Positions 3,690-64,000 of a stretch of 64,000 nt of DNA are shown piece by piece. Location of the stretch: positions 8,687,811-8,751,810 of the forward strand of contig JAOWCC010000237.1 of the NCBI GenBank assembly GCA_030867875.1, in the 5' to 3' direction. A program made the position numbers and the translations under genes. The stretch comes from Actinernus sp. WN-2022. Taxonomy: Eukaryota; Cnidaria; Anthozoa; Actiniaria; Actinernidae. Each line of letters starts with the position of its first letter. Position 1 is the first letter of the stretch. The notes beneath the pieces were generated by a model. It was not told the origin of the DNA, did not search any database, and saw only the letters and a program-made list of their open reading frames with translations.

Positions 3690-4740
3690 CCCTTAGTCAA
3701 TACCACACGTGACAATGCATGATAATTTATTTCTAAAGATAACAGAGAAATGTAATAGAGAGGGGATAAGTTCCTTGAATATAGGGTGGGTGTGCGCGTC
3801 AAATGCCTCCTTGTTAATGATTCTAATTGCACATTTTTGAAGCATAACAATACGATTAAGGTGAGCCCCAGACCGTAACACAATATTGAAGATGTGGATA
3901 TACAAGACAATAGTATAAAGTACGTACGGATGGCTTGGAAAGGCAAAAACTTGATTTATATATAATTCCAACTGATTTAGAGATTTTACTGGCAACGTGG
4001 GAAATATGCGGTTTCCAAGACATATGCTCATCCAAAATTACACTAAGGAATATAACCTCTTTGACCTGATCGATCCTATGATTATTTTGATTATGATTAT
4101 TTTGCTTTTTTTGTCTTGGTTTAAAAAACATATAATTGGATTTATTTACATTGATTGACAGCTTATTAGCCTTAAGCCATACAGATAACTTGTTCATTTC
4201 AATGTCAATTGTATTCATCAGACAGGGTAACTATTTATGAGAAAAACATAGATTGGTGTCATCAGCAAATAAAACTAGTTCAAAACATTTGAGGCATTAC
4301 AAAGATCATTAATGTATACCAAGAAGAGCAGCGGGCCGAGGATTGACTTTTGACGTGATCCACACTTAATACTATTAAATAAGGAACAAGTGCCATTATA
4401 TTCAATATATTGTAACCTATTAGAGGAGTAATTCTTCATCCAGTCAAGGGCCAATACGCGGATACCATAATGCTCAAGTTTGTCAAACAAAATCTCATGG
4501 TTCACAGTATCGAATGCCTTAGAAAGGTCAAGAAAAATTCCCACTGTATATTTTTTCTGGTCGATTGCTGATGTTATTTTATGAAATAAATATAATAGAG
4601 CTAAAGAGGTTGAATGGTTTTTCCTAAAACCGTATTGGTTTTTAAACAGAATATCATATTTATTAAAATATTTAATTAAGCGGTTATACACAACACTTTC
4701 TAACAATATAGAAAAGATTGGCAAAACCGAGTATTGTCAT
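3690..4740 (-). pseudogene. Decayed LINE reverse transcriptase (CR1/Jockey-like)
   Basis: Minus-strand pieces of a non-LTR retrotransposon polymerase. At 4724-4275 is the fingers/palm part, with FRKNHSTSLALL, the catalytic palm strand GIFLDLSKAFDTVNHEIL and a damaged GSRQKSILGPLLFLVYINDL. The FADD catalytic box is still readable near 4240-4260 but in another frame, after a TAG stop. The thumb and C-terminal part (NKLSINVNKSNYMFF, LDEHMSWKPHI, RTLYYCLVYPHLQYC) follows at 4218-3690. Endonuclease and 5' sequence are missing, so this is a 5'-truncated, frameshifted copy. Confidence 0.85.
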
Positions 4741-4954
4741 GTTATAGTGTTGTTTGCAACAATTGCATATGGAATGGGTATAAATACCAAGTGACTGGAA
4801 ACTTTCATTCATATTGGGCCATCCAAGAACTAAGAGGGATATGTACAGGAGAGTGGTAGGTGTGGCAGAGGAGGGGAGCAAAGCAGGGCAATAGTGTTGT
4901 TCAACAATAAGACGTGTGTTTTCTGCAATAAAGGTATCAAGGATTATTTGCTTT

Positions 4955-5668
4955 CAGAGGAATGCAGACGCAAGATCCTAATAGAACCACTTGATTCTGG
5001 TTCCATTATATATAGATCCCCTGAGGTTCTTCACAATTGTTGTGATAACTGTGCTAAATAGTGCGAGTGTGACCATGCAGAGTGCCAGTCATCAATCTTC
5101 GTGCCTGCTAGTTCAGCATGTGAAGAGTCACCATTAGCTAAAAAGAGGGATGTCTCTCTTATCCAGAAGGAACTCCTACAAGTCAAGTTACAGGCTATGA
5201 GAAAGTCACTTGTGATGAAAGCTTGCAAGGGGACCAGAAAGGAAGAAAAGCTACTATCATTTCATGTCCAAGCTCTTTTCTTGAGTTTACTGATGTCTAG
5301 ATTAAGCAAGTTTTAGACAACAGTGAATTTATTTCGAGCATTGCTGACGTGATGTTATGTGTAGAGGTTTGGCAGTATAAACATGCTGAAGCAATATATG
5401 AGTTGTTTTATGAAGTATTTCAGGATGTACCTGCACCTTCACCAGGAAGTGAAGATACTGAAGACAGTGATGATGAAGAGTTGTTGTTGAATGAATAGGC
5501 TGATCTGATAGAGGATGACTCATTCCAGCAAATGTTGAACTCTGGTCTCTTCAGTGACTCCTTTCAAGTAAGTGGACTAATTCCAGATACGGAAGAAGAG
5601 ACTCACCAAGCAAATTACCCTTCTATATTGGATTCAGTTTTCCAAAATGTTGACATGCATGAATAGCA
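4955..5668 (+). pseudogene. RecQ-like helicase C-terminal remnant
   Basis: Translating from about 4961 gives a RecQ-type zinc-binding tail: a CRRK start, HNCCDNCAK, then an in-frame TAG, then CECDHAEC. This resembles the four-cysteine region that follows the helicase core in RecQ proteins. It continues with Lys/Glu-rich helices (KKRDVSLIQKELLQVKLQAM) and, after a frameshift near 5275, an acidic tail (SEDTEDSDDEE) ending at TAG 5666. The helicase motor itself is absent. RecQ-like genes are carried by some animal DNA transposons, so it may be element-derived. One nonsense codon, an internal TAG after LLLNE and the shift mark it as dead. Confidence 0.5.
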
Positions 5669-5669
5669 A

Positions 5670-8240
5670 AAACATTAACAAAATGAACTTGAATAAGCAC
5701 TACTACATGTAGTTTAACAAATCAATGAGAAAAATAATTCTAGTTGGAAATTCAGCAGACCCCAGGAATGAGCTCAGAATTTGGCTGATTTTCAGGATAG
5801 AAAGATTCCTACTATAAACAAAATACTAAGCTTTCATTGAATTAATGTGTTTATATGTACAGTAGATTAAGCAAAGGACTGCCTTCTGTAACAATTAATA
5901 TACCGTAGGAACACTTTCCTAAAACACGAAGAACTGTCTGACAGAAACATAATTACCAGAATTATTGAAAGGATATGAAAATATTCATTCTTAAAAGTCT
6001 AGTTATGTACTATTGATTCGTTGTAAAATAAGTAGGGTTGTACAATGTTCTTTTTTATTTTAGTGTTGCGTAGCCTGATAAAACAGCAGCCTCTAGTCAG
6101 ACTTGATTCAATCGTAGGATGTCAAACCAGAAATTGACTGTTGTCTTTCTCCTTGTGAATGGAATTTTATGCTTTTCACTAAATGATTCATATTTTGAAC
6201 TACAACATCAGTTGGTTACAACTAATAGAATCCTTTTCGAATTCTTTTTACGATTTCTGTTAACTCCGAGAATATCAAGACAGTAGTCCAAATTAGAACT
6301 TATAAAAGGTGCAAAGGATCATGGTAGTTGTACTCAACCGACGTAACAGCGGAAAACTGCCTATTGGCAAAATATTAATATAACATGGATGTTTATTAAA
6401 GGTAATTTATCTCTTCCATAATATTTTTTGTATAAATATACATGAACATGTAAATTGAGCATGGGACAAATAAAGAATATTTTTTTTACACGTCTGGACA
6501 GTGTAAAATGCCGGAAAACAATGGCATTTTCAGTGATCCATCTACCTCTGCATCCTGCGTCTCTGACTCACTGCTTTTGGACTGGGACTCACACTTTGAT
6601 AACCTTGCGAGTCCCAGGACTCACTTCTCTAAATTTCTAGATGGATTACTGCATTTTATACATGTAGTGTTATTGTGTTGACCCCTGGATTGATGTCACA
6701 TTCACATATATGGCTCAGCTATTTCAAAGAATGTAGGGTATTCCCAGATTGAAATGAATTATCAACCTGGACAACTTAGTTTATGGTTTATGTATCCATG
6801 TTTAGCCTGTATACAGCTGTTCAACATATTTATAAAAATGCCTTAATCCCTCATACCCATTCACTAATGCCATATCCCAGATAACGATCAGTCCAAAATG
6901 CGTGTTCTGATTGGTCGATAGTCAATCTATTACAGGACAAATAACATCATCAGTGCATGCAACCAATTTCTCAACTTGTTTTGATTGGATCGTTTCATAC
7001 TTTTTAGTTTGGGATTACTACATAAAACTAATATATTCCATTCTGCAATGCGTCTGTCCTCCTATACATGTAGATGGACAGATAATGCCAAAACATGAGG
7101 AAAACACCAGTTACTCTACTCGAGGACAGATGGATGGCTGAATGGAATCTATTTGTTAAATATTTAAAAAAATTGTTAAGTACATTTTTCCGGGGCAACT
7201 AAAAATTTAAACCTGGGCAACTAAAAACGATAAAGGCAAACCAGGCCTTTGGGAAACCAGCCTAAAACCTTGTTGTCAAGCGCTACCAGACATGGTTGAA
7301 ATGGTCCCTTGGAATGACTTGGGAGGTTTCTTAATATATATATTTTTTTTGGGGGGGGGGATGTGAAGCCCATTACTTTTTGATCCCCCCTCTAAATTCT
7401 CAATAGATTCTATTGTCCCCTCCAATGCCTCTGACAGTGTTTGTCATTGTTGAGTCCCTGACGTTTGTCGATTAATTGAGTTAATATGTAGCACAATATT
7501 TCTAATGTATAGTATATGGCTATGCCAAGATTTTTAAATCTTACTATGACTACTGTATAACCAGGACCACTTAGACAATGAGAACCAATCACATTGTAGA
7601 ATGAAAACAAACATTCCAACTGAGGCAGCAGCTGAGGCGGCAGCTGTATTTCAGGCTAACTGTACTTTGGAATGCTTTATTTTCAATTGCAATGTGTTTA
7701 GTACTTGTTGTCTATGTGGTTAATGTAGTTGGCACTAGTTTTTATAAAGTGTTGTGTAGAAGATTAAACAGTATCTCCAAGCTGCCATGTAATAATCTGT
7801 TTATTATTCACAAAGCCATAAATTACCAACTCACATGCCTATCATAACAACAACAAATCACATCTGTTTATTTTCCCGTTTCACTTTAAAGGGGGACTGG
7901 ACCCAAACATATTTTATACTAAATGCAAAGAAAATGGCAACAATATGCTCAAGACTGACAAATGTAGCCCACAATAACAAAACAAAATACATGGCTACTG
8001 GAAAATATTTGCTGTCTTGAAAATGGTTTTACCCTGTGGCCTGAACTACAGCCATCTCTTAGCGAATGGACCCCTGGAACAAACTGAGGTTGGGATATAC
8101 TCAAGGGCTCAGCAGGAAGGTCCACGTGAAGAAAAACTGGATATAAAAACTGGATATAAAAACTTGGTATGTTATGGCTTGGTGAACAATAAAATTTATA
8201 TTAAAATTTCATAAACATCACTGATGATTTTTACATATTA
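5670..8240. other. 2.6 kb without recognisable genes
   Basis: AT-rich sequence on which I can support no gene. Only short frames occur. A 9-10 base G run lies near 7351-7361, and a short AAAAACTGGATAT duplication near 8135-8165. The piece CTGAGGCGGCAGCTGTATTTCAGGCTA near 7633 recurs in similar form near 16185, showing that this stretch contains dispersed repeat material. Confidence 0.4.
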
Positions 8241-40856: not shown

Positions 40857-41830
40857 AACGCGTCAAAAGCAAATAATAACGTTGTATTCAGAATAATTCA
40901 AGCTTCAAATTGAGACGTTGCTCATGTTCGTACGTGCTCTAGAAGTATTTAAAAGCTAAAAAACATCGCCCATGCAGCCGAGTTGGCGGCAAAGTACTTT
41001 CAAACTGAAGCTGAGTACTGAAAGGCAACCGCGACAAAACAAATCTTAGTGAGCATTAAATAAAAACTATAAACTTAGCGTGTCAAAAGCAAATCATAAC
41101 GTTGTATTCAGAATAATTCAAGCTTCAAATTGAGACGTTGCTCGTGTTCGTATGTGCTCTAGAAGTACTTAAATGCTAAAAAAAATCTTCCCGGCGGAGT
41201 TGGCGGCAAAGTGCATTCAATCTAAAGCTGAGTAAAGGCAACCACGACAAAAAAAATCTTAGTGAGCATTAAATAAAAACTATAAACTTAGCGCGTTAAA
41301 AGCAAATCATAACGTTGTATTCAGAATAATTCAAGCTTCCAACTGAGACGTTGCTCATGTTCGTATGTGCTCTAGAAGTACTTAAACGCTACAAAAATGC
41401 CCCGGCGGAGTTGGCGGCAAAGTCCATTCATTCTAAAGCTGAGTAAAGGCAAACGCGACAAAACAAATCTTAGTGAGCATTAAATAAAAACTATAAACTT
41501 AGCGCGTCAAAAGCAAATCATAACGTTGTATTCAGAATAATTCAAGCTTCCAATTGAGACGTTGCTCATGTTCGTACGTGCTCTAGAAGTACTTAAACAC
41601 TAAAAGATATTCCAGGCGGAGTTGGCGGCAAAGTCCATTCAATCTAAAGCTGAGTAAAGGCAAACGCGACAAAACAAATCTTAGAGAGCATTGAATAAAA
41701 ACTATAAACTTAGCACGTCAAAAGCAAATCATAACGTTGTATTCAGAATAATTCAAACTTCAAATTGAGATGTTGCTCATGTTCCGTACGTGCTCTAGAA
41801 GTATTTAAAAGCTAAAAACATCGCACCGGC
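40857..41830 (+). repeat. Satellite, ~213-bp unit, nearly five copies
   Basis: Units start near 40859, 41078, 41291, 41504 and 41715. Each has GTCAAAAGCAAATCATAACG, a TTCAGAATAATTCAAGC core, GCTCTAGAAGTA and GGAGTTGGCGGCAAAG. Units are about 90-95% alike by eye. No gene inside. It lies within an R1 copy, since R1 blocks flank it on both sides (40608-40745 and 42360 onward). Confidence 0.9.
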
Positions 41831-41879
41831 GACCTCAAAGTTATAACTTTCTCCGTTTTATACGATTCATAGGAAAAAA

Positions 41880-51104: not shown

Positions 51105-52525
51105 CCTCAGACGGAGTTCGAATATAGAGCTGGAAAGCACTGCTGGCCCATCGCCCTTGTGTCTGAATCAGATGATCTGGAACACCGTTCCTTGCAGCTA
51201 CTGTAGCAGCGCCTATGCGGAAGCTGCTTCTGATCTACTGAAGAGTTGCGCGAAACGTCCCAGACGTGTCTGTAAATCCAGCGCGACATGCAACGGCTTA
51301 GCTGATAACAATCGATCCCATATGTGGTATTCCCGAAGATTTCCACCTCTATTCGGTAGCCATCGGTTATTCTCTCCGCTTTGGCTGCGATAACAGAGGT
51401 TTGAAGTCTAGCCATCATAGCCATCAGATCTACACTGGTTATCAAATCCGCTTCTGTCGAAATCCCGCTCTTGAACACATCTGTAACGATAAAATAAATA
51501 CGGATTAGAAAATTACATGGTATCTGGCCCACCTGTGGTACGGCCGACGGGGCCTTCCACGCGGGGGCCTTCCACGCGGGGCCCTTCCACGCGGGGCCCT
51601 TCCACGCGGGGCCCTTCCACGCGGGGCCCTTCCACGCGGGGCCCTTCCACGCGGGGCCCTTCCACGCGGGGCCCTTCCACGGGGGCCCTTTGTACACATT
51701 CGGCAACAGGGCCTTTTGTCTGACTCGTGGCGGCCGACAGGGCCCCACTACTGAGTCTTCACACTGACTCGTGGCGGCCGACAGGGCCCCGAATAGTTAC
51801 CAGGAACACCAGTTCCCTCCAAGATGCGTCTCAGCCAGCTAGTTAGAAGGGAGCTAGCTAATGGCTGACCAGATTGCAGTAAGAATAAAGGACCTGAAGT
51901 ATTGCCTCTCAAAGCCAAATAAGCTAGCACTGCCTGTACTGCACACAAAGGTGGACTAGCTCGACCAATATGGACAAAACAGCCTTTGCGAAATGGATCC
52001 ATCTTGGAGGCCTTGATCCGAACACTTAAACAAGAAGGATTCAACACTGAGTCCACTGCAATGTCACCCACCACCAGAACCGTGAATTCTGCCGCTCTCA
52101 AAAACCCAAAGTACCCAAGTGTACATGCTGCCCAAAGCATGCAATGGTCATAACAGCTCAAATCCAATGACTTGATAATAATAGACATGATGTGATCAGT
52201 GACAGTAAGGCGTTGAGCTCTGGAGGAACCCTGAACAAGCTTGATCCCCCTTTGTAGCCTAGGACAATCTGCTAGCGGATCTGAAAAGCCTAGTTCGATG
52301 TGAAGAGCTCTGACCGCAGAAATATAAACCTTGATTGAAGTATGTTGGATAGAGCCCGCCAAGAACGTTGCAAAAAGACACAGGGTCCATTCGTCTACAG
52401 GGCAAGGCGAACCGGATGCATGTAGCTTGCCAAGTTGCTGACAGAAGTTGACGAATTTCCGCTGACCAGATGCATATGATCGTCACGTAGAAGCAGCTAA
52501 ACCATGAGTGTGAGAACCCCTGCAC
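51105..52525 (-). pseudogene. Tyrosine recombinase of the second element, interrupted
   Basis: Frames 52525-52259 and 52362-51748 give the N-terminal part and most of the catalytic domain (YFGFLRAAEFTV with the first Arg; VLAYLALRGNTSGPLFLLQSG). The frame is then broken by about 530 bases of foreign sequence (51245-51790). It resumes at 51240-51105 with SSFRIGAATVAARNGVPDHL (the His of HxxR replaced by Ser), GRWASSAFQLYIRTPSE and the Tyr. Insertion, frameshifts and the substituted His make it inactive. Confidence 0.75.
51245..51790. repeat. GC-rich insertion with a 15-bp minisatellite
   Basis: 51549-51690 is about nine tandem copies of TTCCACGCGGGGCCC. At the right side a 44-bp unit with CTGACTCGTGGCGGCCGACA is duplicated (51720 and 51764), ending at the recombinase break. 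GC content far exceeds its surroundings. All six frames of a 15-bp repeat stay open, so the frames here (WKGPA or RGRAP repeats) are artefacts of periodicity. Confidence 0.85.
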
Positions 52526-56506: not shown

Positions 56507-56638
56507 AGTAGTATAGTCCAGAAATTCGCTTTATGACGCCCCTTGTGCAAGAAAACAAGGCGTCCATAACATTCACAACCTTTTAAGTTTATCTTGCACA
56601 AGAAAAAGTGGTATTTAACTGACTCCGACTATACTACT
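56507..56638. repeat. 132-bp imperfect inverted repeat left of the virus-type genes
   Basis: AGTAGTATAGTC at 56507-56518 faces its exact complement at 56627-56638, and CTTGTGCAAG at 56542-56551 faces CTTGCACAAG at 56593-56602. It could be a small MITE or a folded end of the integrated element. Maverick-type ends usually start AG, which fits, but no second copy is in view. Confidence 0.6.
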
Positions 56639-56828
56639 AGGGGTAACTAAGGGTCATTCAAAGTGTCACTAGACATTCTTGTACATAAAATCCAAACTTG
56701 AAGTATATGTTAAAGGAATGATTATTATACTGTATATTGGCACCGAATGGTATTAGTATATATTCTTTATTCCATGACATTAGCATTCGTTGTCATCTTA
56801 GTACGCATTAATACCATACAGATCGAAC

Positions 56829-57275
56829 ATGTCGAAGAAGAACTCAAATGTAGACGCCGCAATGCCTGAGACGACTTGTGATTGGTTGATGAGAGGGAAG
56901 GACACGAAATGCACAAAGAAGATTTCGAAGACAACAAAGTTCTGTTCCCAGCACAACTACCAAATCTCAAAAGGCTGTGCCCCATATGTACCATGCTCGA
57001 AGTGCGGTAAAGGATGTCGTACTGATTACGAGCTTTGCTCAGGATGCGACCGTCTCACCATCAAGGTGAAGTCTTCCGGTGTCTATATAAGACGCGCTAA
57101 GAAGTCCAGCAAGAAGCTAGAGGATCCAAGAAAGGAGGAGCCAAACATGGTGGAACTGGAGGTAGCATTGCCCGCTGAATCGAGAGTGCTGGAACCAGTG
57201 GAAGGTCTCGGAGAGTCTCTCAACCATGCACTCAATGAGGTGTTGGCTGCCTTGAGGAATGAGAAGGACGCTTAG
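56829..57275 (+). CDS. Cys-rich putative zinc-binding protein (virus-type block)
   Basis: 148 residues, intact. The N-terminal half has about ten cysteines in pairs with a His (TCDWLMRGKDTKC, FCSQH, CSKCGKGC, LCSGCDRL), suggesting two zinc-binding modules. The C-terminal half is Lys-rich (RRAKKSSKKLEDPRKEE), then an acidic helix. No known family recognised. It is the outermost gene at the left end of the block. The start sits in GATCGAACATG, resembling the TTCAACATG starts of neighbours. It is followed by a strong hairpin terminator-like structure. Plausible role, by composition only: a nucleic-acid-binding or regulatory protein. Confidence 0.75.
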   Translation: MSKKNSNVDAAMPETTCDWLMRGKDTKCTKKISKTTKFCSQHNYQISKGCAPYVPCSKCGKGCRTDYELCSGCDRLTIKVKSSGVYIRRAKKSSKKLEDPRKEEPNMVELEVALPAESRVLEPVEGLGESLNHALNEVLAALRNEKDA

Positions 57276-57290
57276 GAATAGCCACGAAAA

Positions 57291-57355
57291 AAGAAAAAAA
57301 GGAAGAATGAAGAAGGTCGTTGCGTGGCCCTCTTCATTCTTCCTTTTTTTTTTCT
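57291..57355 (+). terminator. Perfect 20-bp hairpin with T-run
   Basis: The stem is 57294-57313 pairing exactly with 57331-57350, with a GGTC/GGCC mini-stem inside the loop. It ends in ten T's and lies 20 bases after the stop of the Cys-rich gene and 33 before the next start. Hairpins at 3' ends direct transcript ends in mimivirus-like giant viruses, and T-runs do so in pox- and asfarviruses (established knowledge). Its use here is an inference. Confidence 0.7.
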
Positions 57356-57387
57356 TCTATTGAACGTACGACATCTATAGTTGTATC

Positions 57388-58380
57388 ATGGATGAGCTAA
57401 TCAGATTGTTTGGTCCTGGAATTTGTAGAAGCCTGAATATCGAACCACAAGTGGAACATATTAACGCCAGTGAAACATGTCCTGATTGTCTCTGCCCCTT
57501 TGAAATACAAGGAACGGAATTCGTATGTCCCACCTGTGGTCTTGTTTCCGAGGTCGAACCATGTGAAGAAACTAAGATCGATATTATTACTACTCGACTG
57601 CGTATAGTAGGTCCGGACGGGTTTAAGTATCAAAGTGATCTAGATCGCGCAAAACCAAAGCAAAGCGATGATGACATAGAACTGAAACGACGAACGCTAC
57701 TACAAGAACTACGAGCATACAACACTATTTACAAACAAAGTTATGATCTATCGTTCCCTATGAACGCGTTAGAAATCGTAGCCGACGCATTCACCCAAGT
57801 AATGAAAGTTTGTCTCAAGCGTAGCGATGCTAAGAAAAATATTTTAGCTGCTCTACTCTACCATGCATGCATACAATGTGGATTCGTCCGATCTAAAAGT
57901 GAGGTTGCTCGCTTCATGCAACTAAGAAACGAAGGCATCCATAGTGGAGAGGTCTTCATACGTTCTCTGTGTGACGACAATAAGATTGATGTAGACTTGG
58001 ATGCGGAGCGCCTAGTTCCTCACATTGCAACGACTTTCCTACAACTAGATCTTGTAGGAGTACCTAGGGACGTTCAACAAATAGTCCACGAGGTCGTTAC
58101 TAAGGCAATGGAAAACAATATAGGCCCCAAATCAATGCTTAAGACGAAAGTCGTTGGAGCAAGTTACGAGGTGCTACGTCGCTCCGGATCGTCTATGTCT
58201 TTTAAGGATGTCGTTAAGCGATGTGACATATTTGGAAATGCGGTCAAGCGTTTTGTCAAGGAGTTGTCTTCTTACCATTCCCACTTCGAACCAATCTACG
58301 CTAGACATGGGCTAACTAGCAGTAGGACTTGGCAAAGTGAAAGTGAGAGCCATGTTCGTTTCTTTCATAGGAAACGTTGA
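57388..58380 (+). CDS. TFIIB-like transcription factor (virus-type)
   Basis: 330 residues, intact. N-terminal zinc ribbon with Cys31, Cys34, Cys47 and Cys50 (C-x2-C-x12-C-x2-C), then a charged linker. Two cyclin-like repeats seem to follow: about 125-205 (KNILAALLYHACIQCGFVRSKSEVARFM) and about 215-315 (VPRDVQQIVHEVVTKAMENN, VVGASYEVLRRSG, FKDVVKRCDIFGNAVKRFVKELSSY). That ribbon plus double-cyclin layout is TFIIB's, and viral TFIIB-like proteins occur in several nucleocytoplasmic DNA viruses. It would recruit RNA polymerase to the viral promoters. The stop is 3 bases from the stop of the opposing gene. Host origin is unlikely: no introns, and sequence far from animal TFIIB. Confidence 0.65.
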   Translation: MDELIRLFGPGICRSLNIEPQVEHINASETCPDCLCPFEIQGTEFVCPTCGLVSEVEPCEETKIDIITTRLRIVGPDGFKYQSDLDRAKPKQSDDDIELKRRTLLQELRAYNTIYKQSYDLSFPMNALEIVADAFTQVMKVCLKRSDAKKNILAALLYHACIQCGFVRSKSEVARFMQLRNEGIHSGEVFIRSLCDDNKIDVDLDAERLVPHIATTFLQLDLVGVPRDVQQIVHEVVTKAMENNIGPKSMLKTKVVGASYEVLRRSGSSMSFKDVVKRCDIFGNAVKRFVKELSSYHSHFEPIYARHGLTSSRTWQSESESHVRFFHRKR

Positions 58381-58383
58381 TTC

Positions 58384-58995
58384 TTACATTCCAAGTTTTT
58401 CTCGCATTTCCTTTTGCACTTCTTGCTTGAGTTCGGCTCGAACCCGATCCGTGCTTTTTTCACCTTTGGAAGCCTTGCGACGAATTTCAGATCTCATGAT
58501 CTCATACTTATTCGCTTCGTTCAGGATGAGACTGTATTCGGAGTCGGATATGTTTTCATCGCGTAAGGCCTTCGATACTAGATCGCGAATCGTATTGATT
58601 TTCGCCTTTGCCAACATAGTTGTCCTTTCATGCTTAGAAACCTTCATTCCTAACTTCTTAGCTCCAACGGTCGTAGATGCTGAAATTAATCCACATAGAC
58701 CACCAATAACTCCAAGTGGTAGACCAATCACTATTCCAACCCCAGTCAACGCTGCACCCAATCCAGATCCAGATAAGATCACAGATAGACCTCCAGTTAC
58801 CACTGCGATGCCATGAACTATTCCTTGAGAACGTGCATATTTCTTGCGCACACCTTCGTAGTGCCTTTCTTGAACTTCGATGTCCGAAAGCGTGTCTCGG
58901 ATCGTTTGCAGTCTGAAGTTCTTTCCAGTGTCACTAACAATCTGTGGATAGATACTTGGTGCTGAGGGAAACGGTGGAATCGAATCGCCTTCCAT
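58384..58995 (-). CDS. Glycine-rich membrane protein, virus-type block
   Basis: 203 residues. A soluble N-terminal helix (TIRDTLSDIEVQERHYEGVRKKYARSQ) precedes a ~47-residue Gly/Val/Leu-rich hydrophobic stretch at residues 59-105 (GIAVVTGGLSVILSGSGLGA, GVIGGLCGLISAS), enough for two membrane passes. A helical, charged C-terminal half ends EKMREKL-like. I recall proteins of this plan as a recurring family in cnidarian genomes linked to the same kind of element, but I cannot name a function; membrane remodelling or a virion membrane protein is possible. The start at 58995 lies 19 bases beyond the stop of the next gene, with GTATAACGTACAATG acting as its likely promoter. Confidence 0.7.
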   Translation of the reverse strand: MEGDSIPPFPSAPSIYPQIVSDTGKNFRLQTIRDTLSDIEVQERHYEGVRKKYARSQGIVHGIAVVTGGLSVILSGSGLGAALTGVGIVIGLPLGVIGGLCGLISASTTVGAKKLGMKVSKHERTTMLAKAKINTIRDLVSKALRDENISDSEYSLILNEANKYEIMRSEIRRKASKGEKSTDRVRAELKQEVQKEMREKLGM

Positions 58996-59014
58996 TGTAC
59001 GTTATACATATGAC
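58996..59014 (-). promoter_or_regulatory. Short promoter-like gap
   Basis: On the minus strand TATGTATAACGTACA runs right up to the start codon of the glycine-rich membrane protein, a variant of the TATAA..TTCAACATG arrangement seen at the other starts of this block. Confidence 0.45.
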
Positions 59015-59689
59015 TTACTCAAGCTTCAACACGTATCGTATCGGGCGACCACGGAAGTCTATCAGATTGCCTTTCTCATCACGAATCGTAAGGCGAAGGC
59101 TGCTTTGCATTGTCCCTGGAGCTCGAGTGGTTGTTGGGAGTAGAGAGGCGTATGTCGATTTTGCGAATCTTTCACCTCGGATCTCTATCGTGGCTAGGAC
59201 TTGTGATCGTTTTCCATCTCGAATTGAAAAGCTGGAATCCACCACATCGCAGTGGACATACACTGTTTCGATATCTTTGAGCACCAGTTCATGAATACCT
59301 TTTAGTACTATCAGCTCGCCGTTATCCCTCGCATCTTTATTACATTCGATGCCCAACAGCGTGCAGAGATTTTCACTTAATTGGATTGGTTTCTTGACTT
59401 CTAGGGTCCAAGCCTCTGTAGGTACAGGTTTCGCGAATTTCACAATGCCAGCATCAATTGCAGGTTTAAAGTATGGTTGGATGCTTGCCATATCGTGATG
59501 CCCCATAGCGATATTGTATGGGAACCCCACACCTTCTTTATTCCACCACGAGAACGAAGCCTTCGTTTCTAGGTTCCACCAACTGTTCTCAAAAGTGACC
59601 TCAACTAGCGAAATATTATTGATAAGAATTGGATCGTCGAAGTAGACAGTATGGTCGGCCAATGTTGTGGTGATATATAAGAGAACCAT
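59015..59689 (-). CDS. Probable minor capsid (penton-like) protein
   Basis: 224 residues, taking the Met at 59689 because the promoter-like motif lies just upstream. Mostly beta-prone sequence: ITTTLADHTVYFDDPI at the N terminus, a WWN pair, LGIEC, VYVHCDVVDSS, and the ending LRLTIRDEKGNLIDFRGRPI. An N-terminal strand series and the terminal 'DEKG..IDF' strand are the style of minor capsid proteins of Maverick- and adinto-like viruses. That family match is from memory and modest. Its neighbours (capsid-like protein, ATPase) support a virion role. It shares a promoter with the 564-residue gene. The longer frame from 59734 would overlap that promoter and is less likely. Confidence 0.5.
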   Translation of the reverse strand: MVLLYITTTLADHTVYFDDPILINNISLVEVTFENSWWNLETKASFSWWNKEGVGFPYNIAMGHHDMASIQPYFKPAIDAGIVKFAKPVPTEAWTLEVKKPIQLSENLCTLLGIECNKDARDNGELIVLKGIHELVLKDIETVYVHCDVVDSSFSIRDGKRSQVLATIEIRGERFAKSTYASLLPTTTRAPGTMQSSLRLTIRDEKGNLIDFRGRPIRYVLKLE

Positions 59690-59732
59690 CTTATGTGTTG
59701 AAGGTATAACTATATATACGTATAACTTCAAC
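59690..59732. promoter_or_regulatory. 43-bp symmetric bidirectional promoter
   Basis: The gap between two divergent genes is a dyad: TGTTGAAGGTATA on one side, ACTATATATACG in the centre and TATAACTTCAACA on the other. Each arm reads TATA(A/C)(C/C)TTCAACA towards its own gene, placing TTCAACATG at the plus-strand start. A shared TATA-like core with initiator-like arms is inferred. Confidence 0.7.
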
Positions 59733-61427
59733 ATGAGGAGGTCCGGAGGTCTTTTCAGTTACCATTACGGAGGGAAAGACGAAGAGGAAGAGTTCCCAAC
59801 ACCGAATGCTAACATAAGGTCAAAGGCTGAGAATCAAGCTAGGAGAGAGAATCAAGCTCGGATAGATAGAGAAGAGGTGAAAAGTAGAGAGGTTGCAACA
59901 TTGAATGCAGATCTATTAGCGAAGTTCAAGAAGAAATACCCACATGCAGATCTTCACAAGTTCTATCCCTCTACGGAAGTGAACGGTCCAGGCAAGTATT
60001 CGACGAGTATTTGGTTTCGAGATGGAGATTCTAGCTATGTCGTTTACGGCAATGATGTCTCAAAGCTACCTGCAGTCACTCAAAGACGCATCGATAATGC
60101 GTTGTGGGATATGCATAAAGGTTTCCCATCTACGTTGATCCTAGATAGGAGTGCGAAATATCCTATTACAGCAGTTCCTTCTACTGGACCGGCACAAGAT
60201 ATCGATCTCACTAATCTATGGATATATGGCACCCCAAAGGATAGGTTCAAAGCAGGCGTTCCAAATATATTCAAGGAGACCGTCGTAAAGCATATGACAG
60301 CAAATGAGTCCTACCATTGGTTACATGGTCCGGATTTCAAATACTGGCCTCAACAATTGAATTTCGCAACGTGGTGTGCGACTTCTGGATGTGGAGTGTC
60401 ATTGCTTGATCCTATTTTCAAAACGTATCCACCAGTCGTTCAGGGGTTCCTACGATTCCATGTTTATTTCACGATACGAAGAATTCTACGTGAACTTGGT
60501 GGTACTCATGGAGTTCCTTTACCTGGTAACTCTAATTTCAAGCAAATGGATAACCCCTATAACAAATCAGCTCTTGAGAAATTGTGCATCGAATTTGGCA
60601 TATCTCGAACACCAGATTTCCCACCAGATTTCCGATGGCACGGAGGTAGGAATAATGGACTAGGAGATATATTCCTTTTGTACCCGGGTTGGCTAGGATA
60701 CGTAAACGTCCATGAAGACCGAAGCTATGACAAAGGTGCAACCACATGGCCTCAGAAACATAATTTATTTGCAGACCAAGGAGGTAAGGAGGATCAGGGC
60801 GATCTTGTGGCCTTCATTAGGAACGATGAACATGAAGGAAAGCAATACAATTGGTTTACACCACCAATCGGAAAGGGTTTGACAGATGTTGGATTGGGTA
60901 GGTTGGATAGATCTGTCGAGGCTTTTGGTCATTGCATGCTTGGTGCTCAAGCCGACTTGAACGGATCCATCATAGATAGCCATAACGTCAAAGAAAAGTT
61001 TAAGAGCTTAGTCGAAGATGCTATTCTCGAAAACGACTTAGTGGTGAGCTACAAAAACTATCCTACTGCTATAACGAGGACACATAAGAGGCTCGATCTA
61101 GCAATAGCTCCAGGTGTGCGATTATTGCCAAGCGATCTAGTGTACTATCTTAGTGAGAAAGATGGCTATAAGAATCCAATCCCGAAAGCTACGAAAGATA
61201 TGGTGCTAGGCACTAACGACGTCAATGCAGAAGGCAAAGGACATCTACCTCTTCCTATGAAAGGACCACCAGATAAGAAATTGGTGCAGCCTCCCGAGAA
61301 ACAAGTTCCTGTACCAAAGGCAAAGGCAAAGGCAAAAGCAAAGGCAAAGGCTGTCTCACAACATGAGATTAATCTCGCAGTGACATCCATTGCCACAGCT
61401 GGAATTGCATGGATGTTGTTTCGTTAA
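59733..61427 (+). CDS. 564-residue virion-type protein of unknown function
   Basis: Start chosen at 59733 (MRRSGGLFSYHYGG), directly after TTCAAC; an earlier in-frame Met at 59667 lies in the neighbouring gene. The N-terminal 70 residues are charged and helical (IRSKAENQARRENQARIDREE). The middle is a folded domain rich in aromatic residues (HWLHGPDFKYWPQQLNFATWC, RFHVYFTIRRIL, WHGGRNNGLGDIFLLYPGWLGY). It ends with an (Lys-Ala)6-type linker and a C-terminal hydrophobic tail (TSIATAGIAWMLF) that could anchor it in a membrane. Similar proteins occur in related cnidarian elements as I recall, without assigned role. Its stop codon overlaps that of the facing gene in a shared TTAA. Confidence 0.7.
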   Translation: MRRSGGLFSYHYGGKDEEEEFPTPNANIRSKAENQARRENQARIDREEVKSREVATLNADLLAKFKKKYPHADLHKFYPSTEVNGPGKYSTSIWFRDGDSSYVVYGNDVSKLPAVTQRRIDNALWDMHKGFPSTLILDRSAKYPITAVPSTGPAQDIDLTNLWIYGTPKDRFKAGVPNIFKETVVKHMTANESYHWLHGPDFKYWPQQLNFATWCATSGCGVSLLDPIFKTYPPVVQGFLRFHVYFTIRRILRELGGTHGVPLPGNSNFKQMDNPYNKSALEKLCIEFGISRTPDFPPDFRWHGGRNNGLGDIFLLYPGWLGYVNVHEDRSYDKGATTWPQKHNLFADQGGKEDQGDLVAFIRNDEHEGKQYNWFTPPIGKGLTDVGLGRLDRSVEAFGHCMLGAQADLNGSIIDSHNVKEKFKSLVEDAILENDLVVSYKNYPTAITRTHKRLDLAIAPGVRLLPSDLVYYLSEKDGYKNPIPKATKDMVLGTNDVNAEGKGHLPLPMKGPPDKKLVQPPEKQVPVPKAKAKAKAKAKAVSQHEINLAVTSIATAGIAWMLFR

Positions 61428-62518
61428 CGTCGTTTGTATTGCTCTATAGTGATCACCACTATTGCTACGATGAATAACCAAACGTTCTGCGCTAGTACTC
61501 CCAGAGCTTTACCAGCCATGGTAAATATGAAACTCGCAATCGATCCAATCATTCCAGGTAGGATCTGTCCAAGTTTCTTTCCCATTTCTTTCAACAACCC
61601 CCCAGTCGTTTGCAATCCCTTCTTTACTGCATCTGCTGCTTTATCAATACCACCCTTTACTGGTTTCGGTACGGATCTCGACAACAGGGAAACTATCGTA
61701 CTAATGATGGCGCCAACGGAAGTTACCACTGCAAGAACGGTCATTCCATGCTTTCTGAAAATGTATTTGATCCTTTCACGTAGCGACATACGTTCTAGTA
61801 TGGCTCCCTCTTGACGTTCAAGTAATTCTATTTCGTTATGGATGTGTACTTTCTCTTTCTTAGCCGCTTCCTTCTGATCCTCAGTTGACGTTAGGTCTTG
61901 AAGTATGCTATCTTCTACTTTGAGATGTTCGGCGGCCTTTTCTTGACCTTGGCTGACTTGGTCTTCTCTTTCTGCATCTGTAGGACCTAGGGCAAATTTG
62001 AGATCTTTACCCATACTTTGATATCTTTCACCCTTCACTGTGGTCAAAGGTATGGGCTTCTCTTTACTTCCAAGTACGTGAAGATAGATTCTAGCCAGTT
62101 CCTTATTGGCCTCCCATATTCCAGTTATCTCAAGGAATCCTCCACGAATCCCTACATCCACATAGTGTTTCCATACAGTATCGAATAGCATTTGTTTCAT
62201 TTCATCCGATGTGCCTGTTTTGAAGACTACGCGGCGATCGCTAAATTTCGGATGTTTGATTCTATCCTCATCCTCCGCAACGAGTTCGTCGAAGTAATCG
62301 TTATCTTCTACGGTAAACGAGGTTTCCCGATTCTTTGGTCGAGCACCTTCCTTGGCGAAGTCGCGTCTAGTTTTCAGGTTTAATGATTCACTCGGATCCA
62401 CATTCGTAGAGTCTGACGCCAATTTCCGTGCTTCTTCATTGACAGTATCATCGTTGTCGTAGTCTCTTCCTCTTTCAGCTTCATCAGTTCTTTCATCATA
62501 CCTACCCTCAGAGGCCAT
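61424..62518 (-). CDS. Coiled-coil multi-pass membrane protein, virus-type block
   Basis: 364 residues from Met at 62518 (MASEGRYDERTDE), chosen because the 34-bp shared promoter lies immediately upstream. Acidic disordered N terminus to about 90; a mixed domain at 95-165 (VWKHYVDVGIRGGFLEITG); a coiled coil about 210-250 (KEKVHIHNEIELLERQEGAI). Three hydrophobic segments follow: 259-280 (VLAVVTSVGAIISTIVSLL), about 318-340 (ILPGMIGSIASFIFTMAG) and 343-358 (AQNVWLFIVAIVVITI), with a basic tail. A role as a virion membrane or scaffold protein is plausible, not shown. Confidence 0.7.
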   Translation of the reverse strand: MASEGRYDERTDEAERGRDYDNDDTVNEEARKLASDSTNVDPSESLNLKTRRDFAKEGARPKNRETSFTVEDNDYFDELVAEDEDRIKHPKFSDRRVVFKTGTSDEMKQMLFDTVWKHYVDVGIRGGFLEITGIWEANKELARIYLHVLGSKEKPIPLTTVKGERYQSMGKDLKFALGPTDAEREDQVSQGQEKAAEHLKVEDSILQDLTSTEDQKEAAKKEKVHIHNEIELLERQEGAILERMSLRERIKYIFRKHGMTVLAVVTSVGAIISTIVSLLSRSVPKPVKGGIDKAADAVKKGLQTTGGLLKEMGKKLGQILPGMIGSIASFIFTMAGKALGVLAQNVWLFIVAIVVITIEQYKRR

Positions 62519-62552
62519 GTTAAACATATCTACATATATAGTTATATTCAAC
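62519..62552. promoter_or_regulatory. 34-bp symmetric bidirectional promoter
   Basis: The only sequence between two divergent starts. The right arm ATATTCAACATG leads into the capsid-like gene and the left arm, read on minus, ATATGTTTAACATG into the membrane protein. The centre is CTACATATATAG. It has the same design as 59690-59732. Confidence 0.7.
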
Positions 62553-63788
62553 ATGATCTCGTTAACATTGGATCCCACACAAGTACGAAGAGAGCCTCAT
62601 GCACTCAAGGCTCCGCGAGACTTGTATAGGAAAACTTTCACTCGATCATCTGCCAATCCAGGTGAGACTCTATACGTAGAAGTTCCAAAGCTAGCAGAAG
62701 ATGTAGTACTAGTACCTGGTAGCTTAGCGCTATTGGGCGACATCGTACTATCTGGTGGACATGCGAATAACAGAGTCGTTTCGAACGTTGGACGCTGTTT
62801 GGTCATGCGTAGAATCTGTAGGATGGGAGCTGAAACAGTAGAAGACCTTGTCAGGCCAGACCTCCTACAAACATACTCCGATGTATACCTATCTACGCAG
62901 GAGAGAGAGTCTAGAATACAACAAGGCATTCAATCAGAGAACTTGAATAAGCTACGATCGAAAGCTGGTGACGCAAGTACTTCATCTGCTGCAGACAACG
63001 CGCTCCTAACTGCATGTGGTTCTAAGTATAGGATTCCCTTAGATGTTGACATTCTGACACAACATGGAGTTCTATATCCACATGCCTTAGAAAGTACCAT
63101 TACGTTCGAGTTAACTCTAGCGGCTGCCAACGAGGTTGTAATTGGATCGGATACGACGAAGATAGGTACGTACCAACTTACCAACATCCAACTAGAATAC
63201 GAAGCAATCAGGAACGAAACGCTGGCTAGTAGTGCACTTCACAAATATGAAATAGGTACTGCATTCCTATACAACTACGCTGTTCACTTCAAAACAGTAG
63301 ATATCGCTAAAACGTCCGATACTTTGATATCTCAAAACATCAATGTTCCACGACGATCCTTTGCTGGCCTACTTCTACTATTCATAGATCCACCTACCAT
63401 TGGCACGCGAGATAGTGAAGCATTCTCGAATCCAGATATCTTAAAGGTAGAAGTAGATGTCAATGGGATTCCCAACAGACTCTTTCCAAGCGGCATGCTT
63501 CCCCTAGATTTCTGGGAGGCTGCAAGAAGCTGGTTTGGCACCCCCAATACTTCTATGACTCCAAAGAAGTTCTTTGAAAATAGATTCTCTATTCTAATCG
63601 ATTGTCGCACAGCAAAAGATTCCACCGTTCATGGTGATGGCTTGGCACAAACCGGTAGTGGAAAGGACATCGACATTCGCATACATAGAACTGCAAAGGG
63701 AAGTGGAAATGTGAAAATGCACATCTATGTCCTTGCGGATGCTCAGGTCACGATATTGAACAGATCTCTGCAGAGTATATTATACTGA
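62553..63788 (+). CDS. Probable double-jelly-roll major capsid protein
   Basis: 411 residues from Met at 62553 (MISLTLDPTQVRRE), right after TTCAAC. Predominantly beta-prone: VLVPGSLALLGDIVLSGG, then IPLDVDILTQHGVLYPHAL and TITFELTLAAANEVVIG, then TYQLTNIQLEYEAIRNETLAS (end of a first barrel), NVPRRSFAGLLLLFIDPP, and a second half ending FSILIDCRTAKDSTVHG and MHIYVLADAQVTIL. The 'IPL..LYP..' and 'LTNIQLEYE' strands and the C-terminal small-strand pattern resemble hexon-type capsid proteins of Maverick/adinto-like and NCLDV viruses. Size and place next to the packaging ATPase fit. Confirmation needs structure prediction. Confidence 0.55.
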   Translation: MISLTLDPTQVRREPHALKAPRDLYRKTFTRSSANPGETLYVEVPKLAEDVVLVPGSLALLGDIVLSGGHANNRVVSNVGRCLVMRRICRMGAETVEDLVRPDLLQTYSDVYLSTQERESRIQQGIQSENLNKLRSKAGDASTSSAADNALLTACGSKYRIPLDVDILTQHGVLYPHALESTITFELTLAAANEVVIGSDTTKIGTYQLTNIQLEYEAIRNETLASSALHKYEIGTAFLYNYAVHFKTVDIAKTSDTLISQNINVPRRSFAGLLLLFIDPPTIGTRDSEAFSNPDILKVEVDVNGIPNRLFPSGMLPLDFWEAARSWFGTPNTSMTPKKFFENRFSILIDCRTAKDSTVHGDGLAQTGSGKDIDIRIHRTAKGSGNVKMHIYVLADAQVTILNRSLQSILY

Positions 63789-64000
63789 TGGATTCTCTCG
63801 TAGAGCACGTGCCGTTCAACGCACTCATAGTCGGTCCAACTAATTGTGGGAAGACTGCGTTTCTCATAGAACAACTTCGTGGAGCATTTCGTGGTAAGTT
63901 CGATTACATAGTACTGATTTGTCCTACGTATGCCCACAACAAAACTTATCGTGGATTTGCAAATCGAGATCCTCGTTTCTTCGTCATATCACCACCGCAG
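63788..64000 (+). CDS. A32/FtsK-HerA-type genome-packaging ATPase, 5' part
   Basis: Starts in the overlap TGATG with the stop of the capsid-like gene and runs off the window with 71 codons open. Walker A is GPTNCGKT at residues 16-23, preceded by the hydrophobic strand NALIVG. The second strand follows (YIVLICPTYAHNKTY, then FFVIS). P-loop with this spacing and the ICPT element are typical of the A32-like DNA-packaging ATPases of Bamfordvirae viruses. The Walker B and sensor regions are off the window. Overlap with the capsid gene implies one transcription unit. It would pump the genome into the capsid. Confidence 0.7.
   Translation, partial: MDSLVEHVPFNALIVGPTNCGKTAFLIEQLRGAFRGKFDYIVLICPTYAHNKTYRGFANRDPRFFVISPPQ

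Follow-up and report, generated by a model that had tools for sequence, protein, structure and literature searches.

A compact gene block at a contig end in Actinernus sp. as the probable left half of an integrated Polinton/Maverick-type virus with its own TFIIB-like gene

The stretch of DNA analysed in this work (hereafter the window) comprises 64,000 nucleotides of the anthozoan Actinernus sp. WN-2022 (contig JAOWCC010000237.1, positions 8,687,811 to 8,751,810 of the forward strand), and the contig ends at window base 64000. Its right-hand part holds a block of eight open reading frames on both strands (56829-64000), which an earlier interpretation made from the letters alone (the sequence-only reading) had described as a compact virus-type gene block with a capsid protein, a packaging ATPase and a TFIIB-like factor of its own. 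Based on sibling copies sought across the same genome assembly (1.39 Gb in 1772 contigs), we conclude that the block very probably belongs to one integrated copy, about 15 kb long, of a Polinton/Maverick-type virus and represents its left half, the window holding this half only because the contig stops inside the ATPase gene.

The gene block at the end of the contig

The eight compact frames claimed by the sequence-only reading are all present in the open reading frame list, and most of them are indeed separated by 3-43 bases or overlap; the first two, gene A and the TFIIB-like gene, are instead 112 bases apart. The start of the block, formerly placed at 56829, has to be moved, since the element begins further left, at 56507. 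Here the left terminal inverted repeat (TIR) survives only in part (56507-56701), its 12 terminal bases AGTAGTATAGTC being followed by the centre of a terminal near-palindrome, the outer arm of which is deleted.

From this terminus rightwards, gene A (56829-57275, plus strand; 148 residues), with only weak zinc-ribbon-like matches, is followed by the TFIIB-like gene (57388-58380, plus strand; 330 residues), with zinc-ribbon cysteines and a cyclin-like repeat, and by gene C (58384-58995, minus strand; 203 residues), which has a hydrophobic centre at residues 58-110. Gene D (59015-59689, minus strand) codes for 224 residues (239 if started at 59734), with conserved ends around a hypervariable middle, and is a candidate for a minor capsid or surface protein. 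Gene E (59733-61427, plus strand; 564 residues) differs between copies, and gene F (61424-62518, minus strand; 364 residues, longer starts being possible), with hydrophobic C-terminal segments, is very variable among them. Two putative bidirectional promoter regions separate D from E (59690-59732, with TGTTGAA...TATA on either strand and boxes that extend no further than the first base of the opposite start codon) and F from the gene for the major capsid protein (MCP) (62519-62552, with the motif on both sides). The MCP gene itself (62553-63788, plus strand; 411 residues) is followed by an A32-type packaging ATPase (63788-64000, plus strand), of which the first 71 residues are present, the frame being open at the window end.

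Two of the proteins had been put forward as beta-rich capsid candidates, and structure prediction had been suggested for those of 411, 224 and 564 residues. The 411-residue protein has a double jelly roll in its predicted fold, and among the 120 capsid relatives listed the sole named one is a protein of the coral Oculina patagonica (46% identity); the 564-residue protein, the product of gene E, has no family match in Pfam or NCBIfam. The A32-like nature of the ATPase is confirmed by Pfam Pox_A32 (PF04665) matches, both for the 71-residue stump with its Walker A motif (E 1.3e-5) and for the 206-residue protein of a sibling copy, L010 (E 2.3e-11). A comparison with PHROGs gave nothing convincing.

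Sibling copies, right half and termini

The search of the genome with the ATPase start gave 4001 first-look candidates, the best-scoring 150 of which were scored, so that the resulting count is a lower bound: at least 150 genomic places match the 71 residues at 99-100% identity, and all 150 listed are free of stops. To the right of the ATPase gene, three copies (L010, L011 and L012) carry a frame of 182-183 residues (o183), a frame of 142 residues (o142), an integrase of 347 residues and a DNA polymerase of 1196 residues (minus strand), all of them open; L010 and L012, located on different contigs, share 99.88% identity across 7518 bp, and both end on the same base. In L010, the copy in which the right-half genes were compared with Pfam, the integrase matches PF00665 (E 1.8e-10), with D-D-E motifs, and the polymerase matches PF03175 (E 3.8e-11). 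Along the latter are found the exonuclease motif (VYDFEAY from residue 442) and the palm motifs (GYDANALYL from 781, KLLGNSAYG from 950 and DTDSAYI from 1050); GDNLC (from 169) and GHAFYI (from 260) are OTU-like by motif only. A polymerase domain order TP-vOTU-EXO-PALM is given in an excerpt of PMC11071308. The idea of a separate, poorly described lineage without integrase and polymerase has consequently to be abandoned, given that siblings carry both genes and that their apparent lack is due to the contig ending in the ATPase gene; polymerase B, integrase and TIRs, which the sequence-only reading proposed to look for to the right, are all present in the siblings.

Ten copies measured from end to end are 14,865-15,799 bp long and all have TIRs, the left and right ends aligning over 299-405 bp with 94.6-100% identity within a copy. 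Among 21 copies examined, 19 yielded both ends, and 17 of these have an exact 5-bp target-site duplication (TSD), the count being less sure for L018 and L078, where the flank itself is a simple repeat; a 6-bp duplication was seen in none of the 19. These counts refer to siblings, the right end of the window copy being unassembled. The two-ended copies lacking a TSD (L015/L012 and L022/L023) are possibly recombinants or assembly joins. All 19 sit in contigs of 26-190 Mb, mostly with TSDs, which makes a contaminant unlikely and upholds the earlier view of an integrated DNA virus-like element. In the literature consulted, both mavirus and Maverick/Polinton elements are described as having a TSD of 5-6 bp.

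The terminal 233 bp form an imperfect palindrome (220 of 235 columns are identical to its own reverse complement), which folds at -126 kcal/mol (z -28.7). Hairpin-end (flip-flop) replication was considered and rejected, because 37 of 38 ends are closer to one common orientation, with a margin of just 4-13 bases in the most diverged copies. The left-end palindrome of L016 (969-1201) is flipped with respect to the 37 other ends, being identical to the flipped form at 230 of 233 positions. Between the TIR and gene A, nine of the eleven fetched left ends contain about 700 bases (~1181-1915 in L013) that are absent from the window copy and from L018, L026 being too diverged. Elsewhere in the window there are a satellite-like tandem array (40859-41831; a 211-bp unit repeated 4.6 times with ~90% matches) and a GC-rich 15-bp tandem repeat, CGGGGCCCTTCCACG, in 9.7 copies (51548-51690).

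By the features tested, the element is a member of the Polintons/Mavericks: an A32 ATPase is present in the window and in a sibling, and an integrase and TIRs with TSDs are present in siblings. With animal Polintons/Mavericks (polintoviruses, adintoviruses) it shares the size, AGTAGT-ended TIRs, a short TSD, the rve integrase, a B-family polymerase with an OTU-like motif, the A32 ATPase and the double-jelly-roll capsid protein, and it differs from them in its own TFIIB-like gene, the shared promoter signal and the 233-bp near-palindromic ends. Mavirus and endogenous mavirus-like elements are also integrating, with TIRs, a short TSD, an rve integrase and a protein-primed polymerase. The cnidarian Polintons described from Hydra, Nematostella and Stylophora (PMC4028283, PMC10120064, PMC11071308), compared by description and not by sequence, are elements of the same kind; the word TFIIB is absent from PMC10120064 and PMC11071308, and PMC4028283 was not searched for it. 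The siblings, at 14.9-15.8 kb, are far from the size of Nucleocytoviricota, whose genomes start at ~100 kb according to the consulted part of PMC11253617.

The TFIIB-like factor and the shared promoter signal

The TFIIB-like factor announced by the sequence-only reading is supported by several matches of differing strength. The Pfam TFIIB repeat is found below the cut-off (E 1.1e-3), and firmer matches are given by NCBIfam NF001658 (E 8.8e-5, although at 21.7 bits it stays far below the curated cut-off of 384) and by the comparison of the protein profile with the archaeal TFB 1ais (E 2.9e-5, alignment A4, first repeat only); additionally, the zinc-ribbon cysteines 31, 34, 47 and 50 are invariant in 30 aligned sequences. 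A single-sequence search returned three relatives and a profile search 33 (8000 candidates scored), 32-43% identical to the window protein. These come from jgi, lgn, ena and ncbi, most of them without names; two are called TFIIIB Brf1/TFIIB by JGI, and P0132 of Elysia marginata is called BA71V-C315R. This sea-slug record and the Oculina capsid relative would fit a cnidarian or other marine invertebrate host. In the Actinernus genome, 121 copies were scored (the best of 2944 candidates), all full length at 96-100% identity and one with a stop; this recurrence, taken with the 150 places that match the start of the ATPase at 99-100%, rules out chance frames. In 20 fetched stretches the gene was found at 93.6-97.0% identity in 13, at 83% in one, at 64-65% over nearly its full length in two and as pieces in three, with none in the stretch taken of L057.

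DNA viruses are known that code for such a factor, as with the C315R protein of African swine fever virus (ASFV) and the TFIIB-like factors of other nucleocytoplasmic large DNA viruses (NCLDVs). NCLDVs are, however, far larger and most of them bring their own RNA polymerase, whereas no RNA polymerase match was obtained in the frames searched here (window and sibling proteins). Judging by titles and abstracts, no report of a TFIIB gene in Polintons was found, and papers looked up for the word TFIIB do not contain it; this is weak evidence of absence, as PMC6746690, PMC12085832 and PMC12638062, in which Polintons or polintoviruses and TFIIB are both mentioned, were not read for it. What may be new in this Polinton are its own TFIIB-like gene, the shared promoter signal, the exchanged module described below and the very high recent copy number.

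The promoter signal was defined as TRTTRRA followed, 4-18 bases on, by TATA or TATG, within 60 bases before the start, and it precedes nine of the twelve element genes (the box is absent before gene A and o142, and the integrase gene has the box only). The D/E and F/MCP pairs share their bidirectional regions, and the nine genes therefore correspond to seven independent regions of ten. As background, the motif occurs in 100 of 14270 host 60-mers, and in 38 of 2032 and 18 of 1992 60-mers from element pieces, true ones included. In a motif-free look, 5 of the 12 stretches contained the best shared 10-mer (one mismatch), compared with 1-3 after shuffling (30 shuffles), the F stretch being 6 bases off. 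The composite motif recurs in 9 of 13 stretches of other copies (before MCP, ATPase, D, polymerase and TFIIB genes of C398, C1380 or C540), the exceptions being two integrase stretches with the box only, the C398 TFIIB stretch without a box and a C398 E stretch off the true start. TFIIB classically contacts DNA beside TATA, so that an element-specific TFIIB reading the box would be the simplest mechanism; whether the factor might recognise these TGTTGAA-TATA promoters is, in our judgement, evenly balanced.

Probable module exchange, selection and mode of life

Within the main group of copies (window, C635, C540 and C1380), the ratio of nonsynonymous to synonymous divergence (dN/dS) of the MCP is 0.08-0.19, and for C635, C540 and C1380 it is 0.06-0.08 for the ATPase, 0.04-0.06 for the integrase and 0.14-0.24 for the polymerase. 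With respect to the C398 subfamily, the values are 0.30-0.33 for the MCP, 0.08-0.09 for the ATPase, 0.09-0.10 for the integrase and 0.29-0.33 for the TFIIB-like gene (synonymous divergence, dS, of ~0.65). Judged by these ratios, the MCP is as constrained as the polymerase within the main group. That the genes for capsid, ATPase, integrase and polymerase are all under purifying selection implies that the copies stem from lineages using all four, and it suggests that the element passes through particles.

When the window is compared with the C635 and C540 copies, the TFIIB-like protein and the MCP are 96-100% identical, and across the four copies compared identity drops to 56-84% in D, to 55% at the start of E (three copies) and to 57-72% in F of C1380. 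The same genes stand out at synonymous sites: within the main group, dS is 0.39-0.82 in D, against 0.045-0.09 in the MCP and 0.005-0.15 in the TFIIB-like gene, and it is raised in E (0.16-0.32) and, in C1380 pairs, in F (0.97-1.72). Because D, E and F have diverged while the flanking genes stay near-identical, sequence comparison indicates that D-E-F is exchanged as a module between diverged lineages, which must therefore have met; the three genes most likely code for exposed or host-interacting parts of the virion. Strong positive selection in place, with no exchange, might account for the hypervariable middle of gene D between its conserved ends; nevertheless, protein-level selection alone does not raise synonymous divergence, and the dN/dS of D is just 0.30-0.61, so that we consider this explanation unlikely. 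In the C398 subfamily the replication gene also seems to have been exchanged, or to have decayed, because the main-group polymerase is not found there as such. The polymerase region of L060, from this subfamily, contains an 800-residue frame (4026-6428) that weakly resembles recombination endonuclease VII (a PF02945 match with E 4.5e-5).

Taken together, the genes outline a likely life cycle. The rve integrase would insert the linear DNA at a cut whose 5-bp stagger is shown by the duplications in the siblings; the B-family polymerase, with its OTU-like motif before the exonuclease, may start protein-primed replication at the TIR ends; the A32-type ATPase would package the DNA into a shell of the predicted double-jelly-roll capsid protein; and the TFIIB-like factor most likely brings host RNA polymerase to the promoters of the element, with TGTTGAA upstream of a TATA stretch. 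Going further, we tentatively propose, as a possibility that we regard as less probable than its negation, a living, particle-forming Polinton with its own promoter system, in which the TFIIB-like protein would read TGTTGAA-TATA and hijack the host RNA polymerase for the element genes alone, the D-E-F alleles would swap between co-infecting lineages, under selection for evading immunity or reaching new host surfaces, and recent amplification would have filled the host genome with near-identical copies.

Several observations weigh against these proposals. The TSD is 5 bp long, unlike the 6 bp given for vertebrate Mavericks in the portions of the literature consulted, and at the left end of the window copy the outer arm is missing. 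The protease, also expected to the right, gave no Pfam match of the Ulp1/adenain type in the frames searched (window and siblings), where a diverged protease is possible; this is a further difference from animal Polintons, as is the other polymerase region of the C398 subfamily, which is partly broken and in which the main-group polymerase is recognised at only 22% over part of its length, with a stop. Not all siblings are intact: the MCP and F genes of C635 and the E gene of C1380 match in two frames, and there are stops in D, MCP and o183 of C398 and in the TFIIB-like gene and o183 of C1380. With respect to C398, the ratios indicate that the MCP is less constrained than the ATPase and the integrase. 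The genes on which the promoter signal was scored are those from which it had been read, the dN/dS of the TFIIB-like gene within the main group is 0.42-0.80 (pairs with more than few changes; the window-C635 pair, with very few changes, gives 2.9), and the element is described here from its sequence. The frame breaks and the weaker TFIIB constraint slightly lowered the probability that we assign to the main explanation and to a living, particle-forming Polinton, and slightly raised that of the two rivals in which the capsid genes are cargo or the TFIIB-like gene has no role.

The second of these, a TFIIB-like gene captured from the host that plays no part for the virus, or that acts as a decoy on host transcription, we hold to be possible though doubtful: the likeness to TFIIB is distant, its function is read from the sequence and its main-group constraint is the one just given, but a family of 33 related proteins was found, it is under purifying selection between subfamilies and the element bears a promoter signal of its own. 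Somewhat more doubtful is a purely intracellular transposon carrying its capsid genes as passive cargo. This would agree with the very many copies in one genome, the broken capsid genes of some siblings and the scans of IMG/VR viral contigs with capsid (single sequence and profile), TFIIB (two profiles), polymerase and ATPase queries, which gave no confirmed relative; yet the main-group capsid is as constrained as the polymerase, the ATPase nearly as much as the integrase, and the exchange of D-E-F implies a meeting of diverged lineages. That the block represents a separate lineage, either new or akin to NCLDVs, without integrase and polymerase, is very improbable in view of the contig end in the ATPase gene and of the genes, total length, TIRs and TSDs of the siblings; moreover, in the part of PMC4028283 consulted, a Hydra Polinton capsid protein is reported with PBCV-1 VP54 as its only significant match.

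The Polinton/Maverick assignment bears on the question of whether animal Polintons are transposons or infectious viruses; particles of vertebrate Mavericks had not been observed as of 2021, according to the consulted part of PMC8097293. A genome in which the ATPase has at least 150 near-identical matches, the capsid genes are constrained and a promoter signal is shared lends itself to direct tests of expression and particle formation in living material. In a 15-kb element, a TFIIB-like factor would show in minimal form how a DNA virus steers the transcription of its host, and it bears on the origin of the larger transcription systems of giant viruses.

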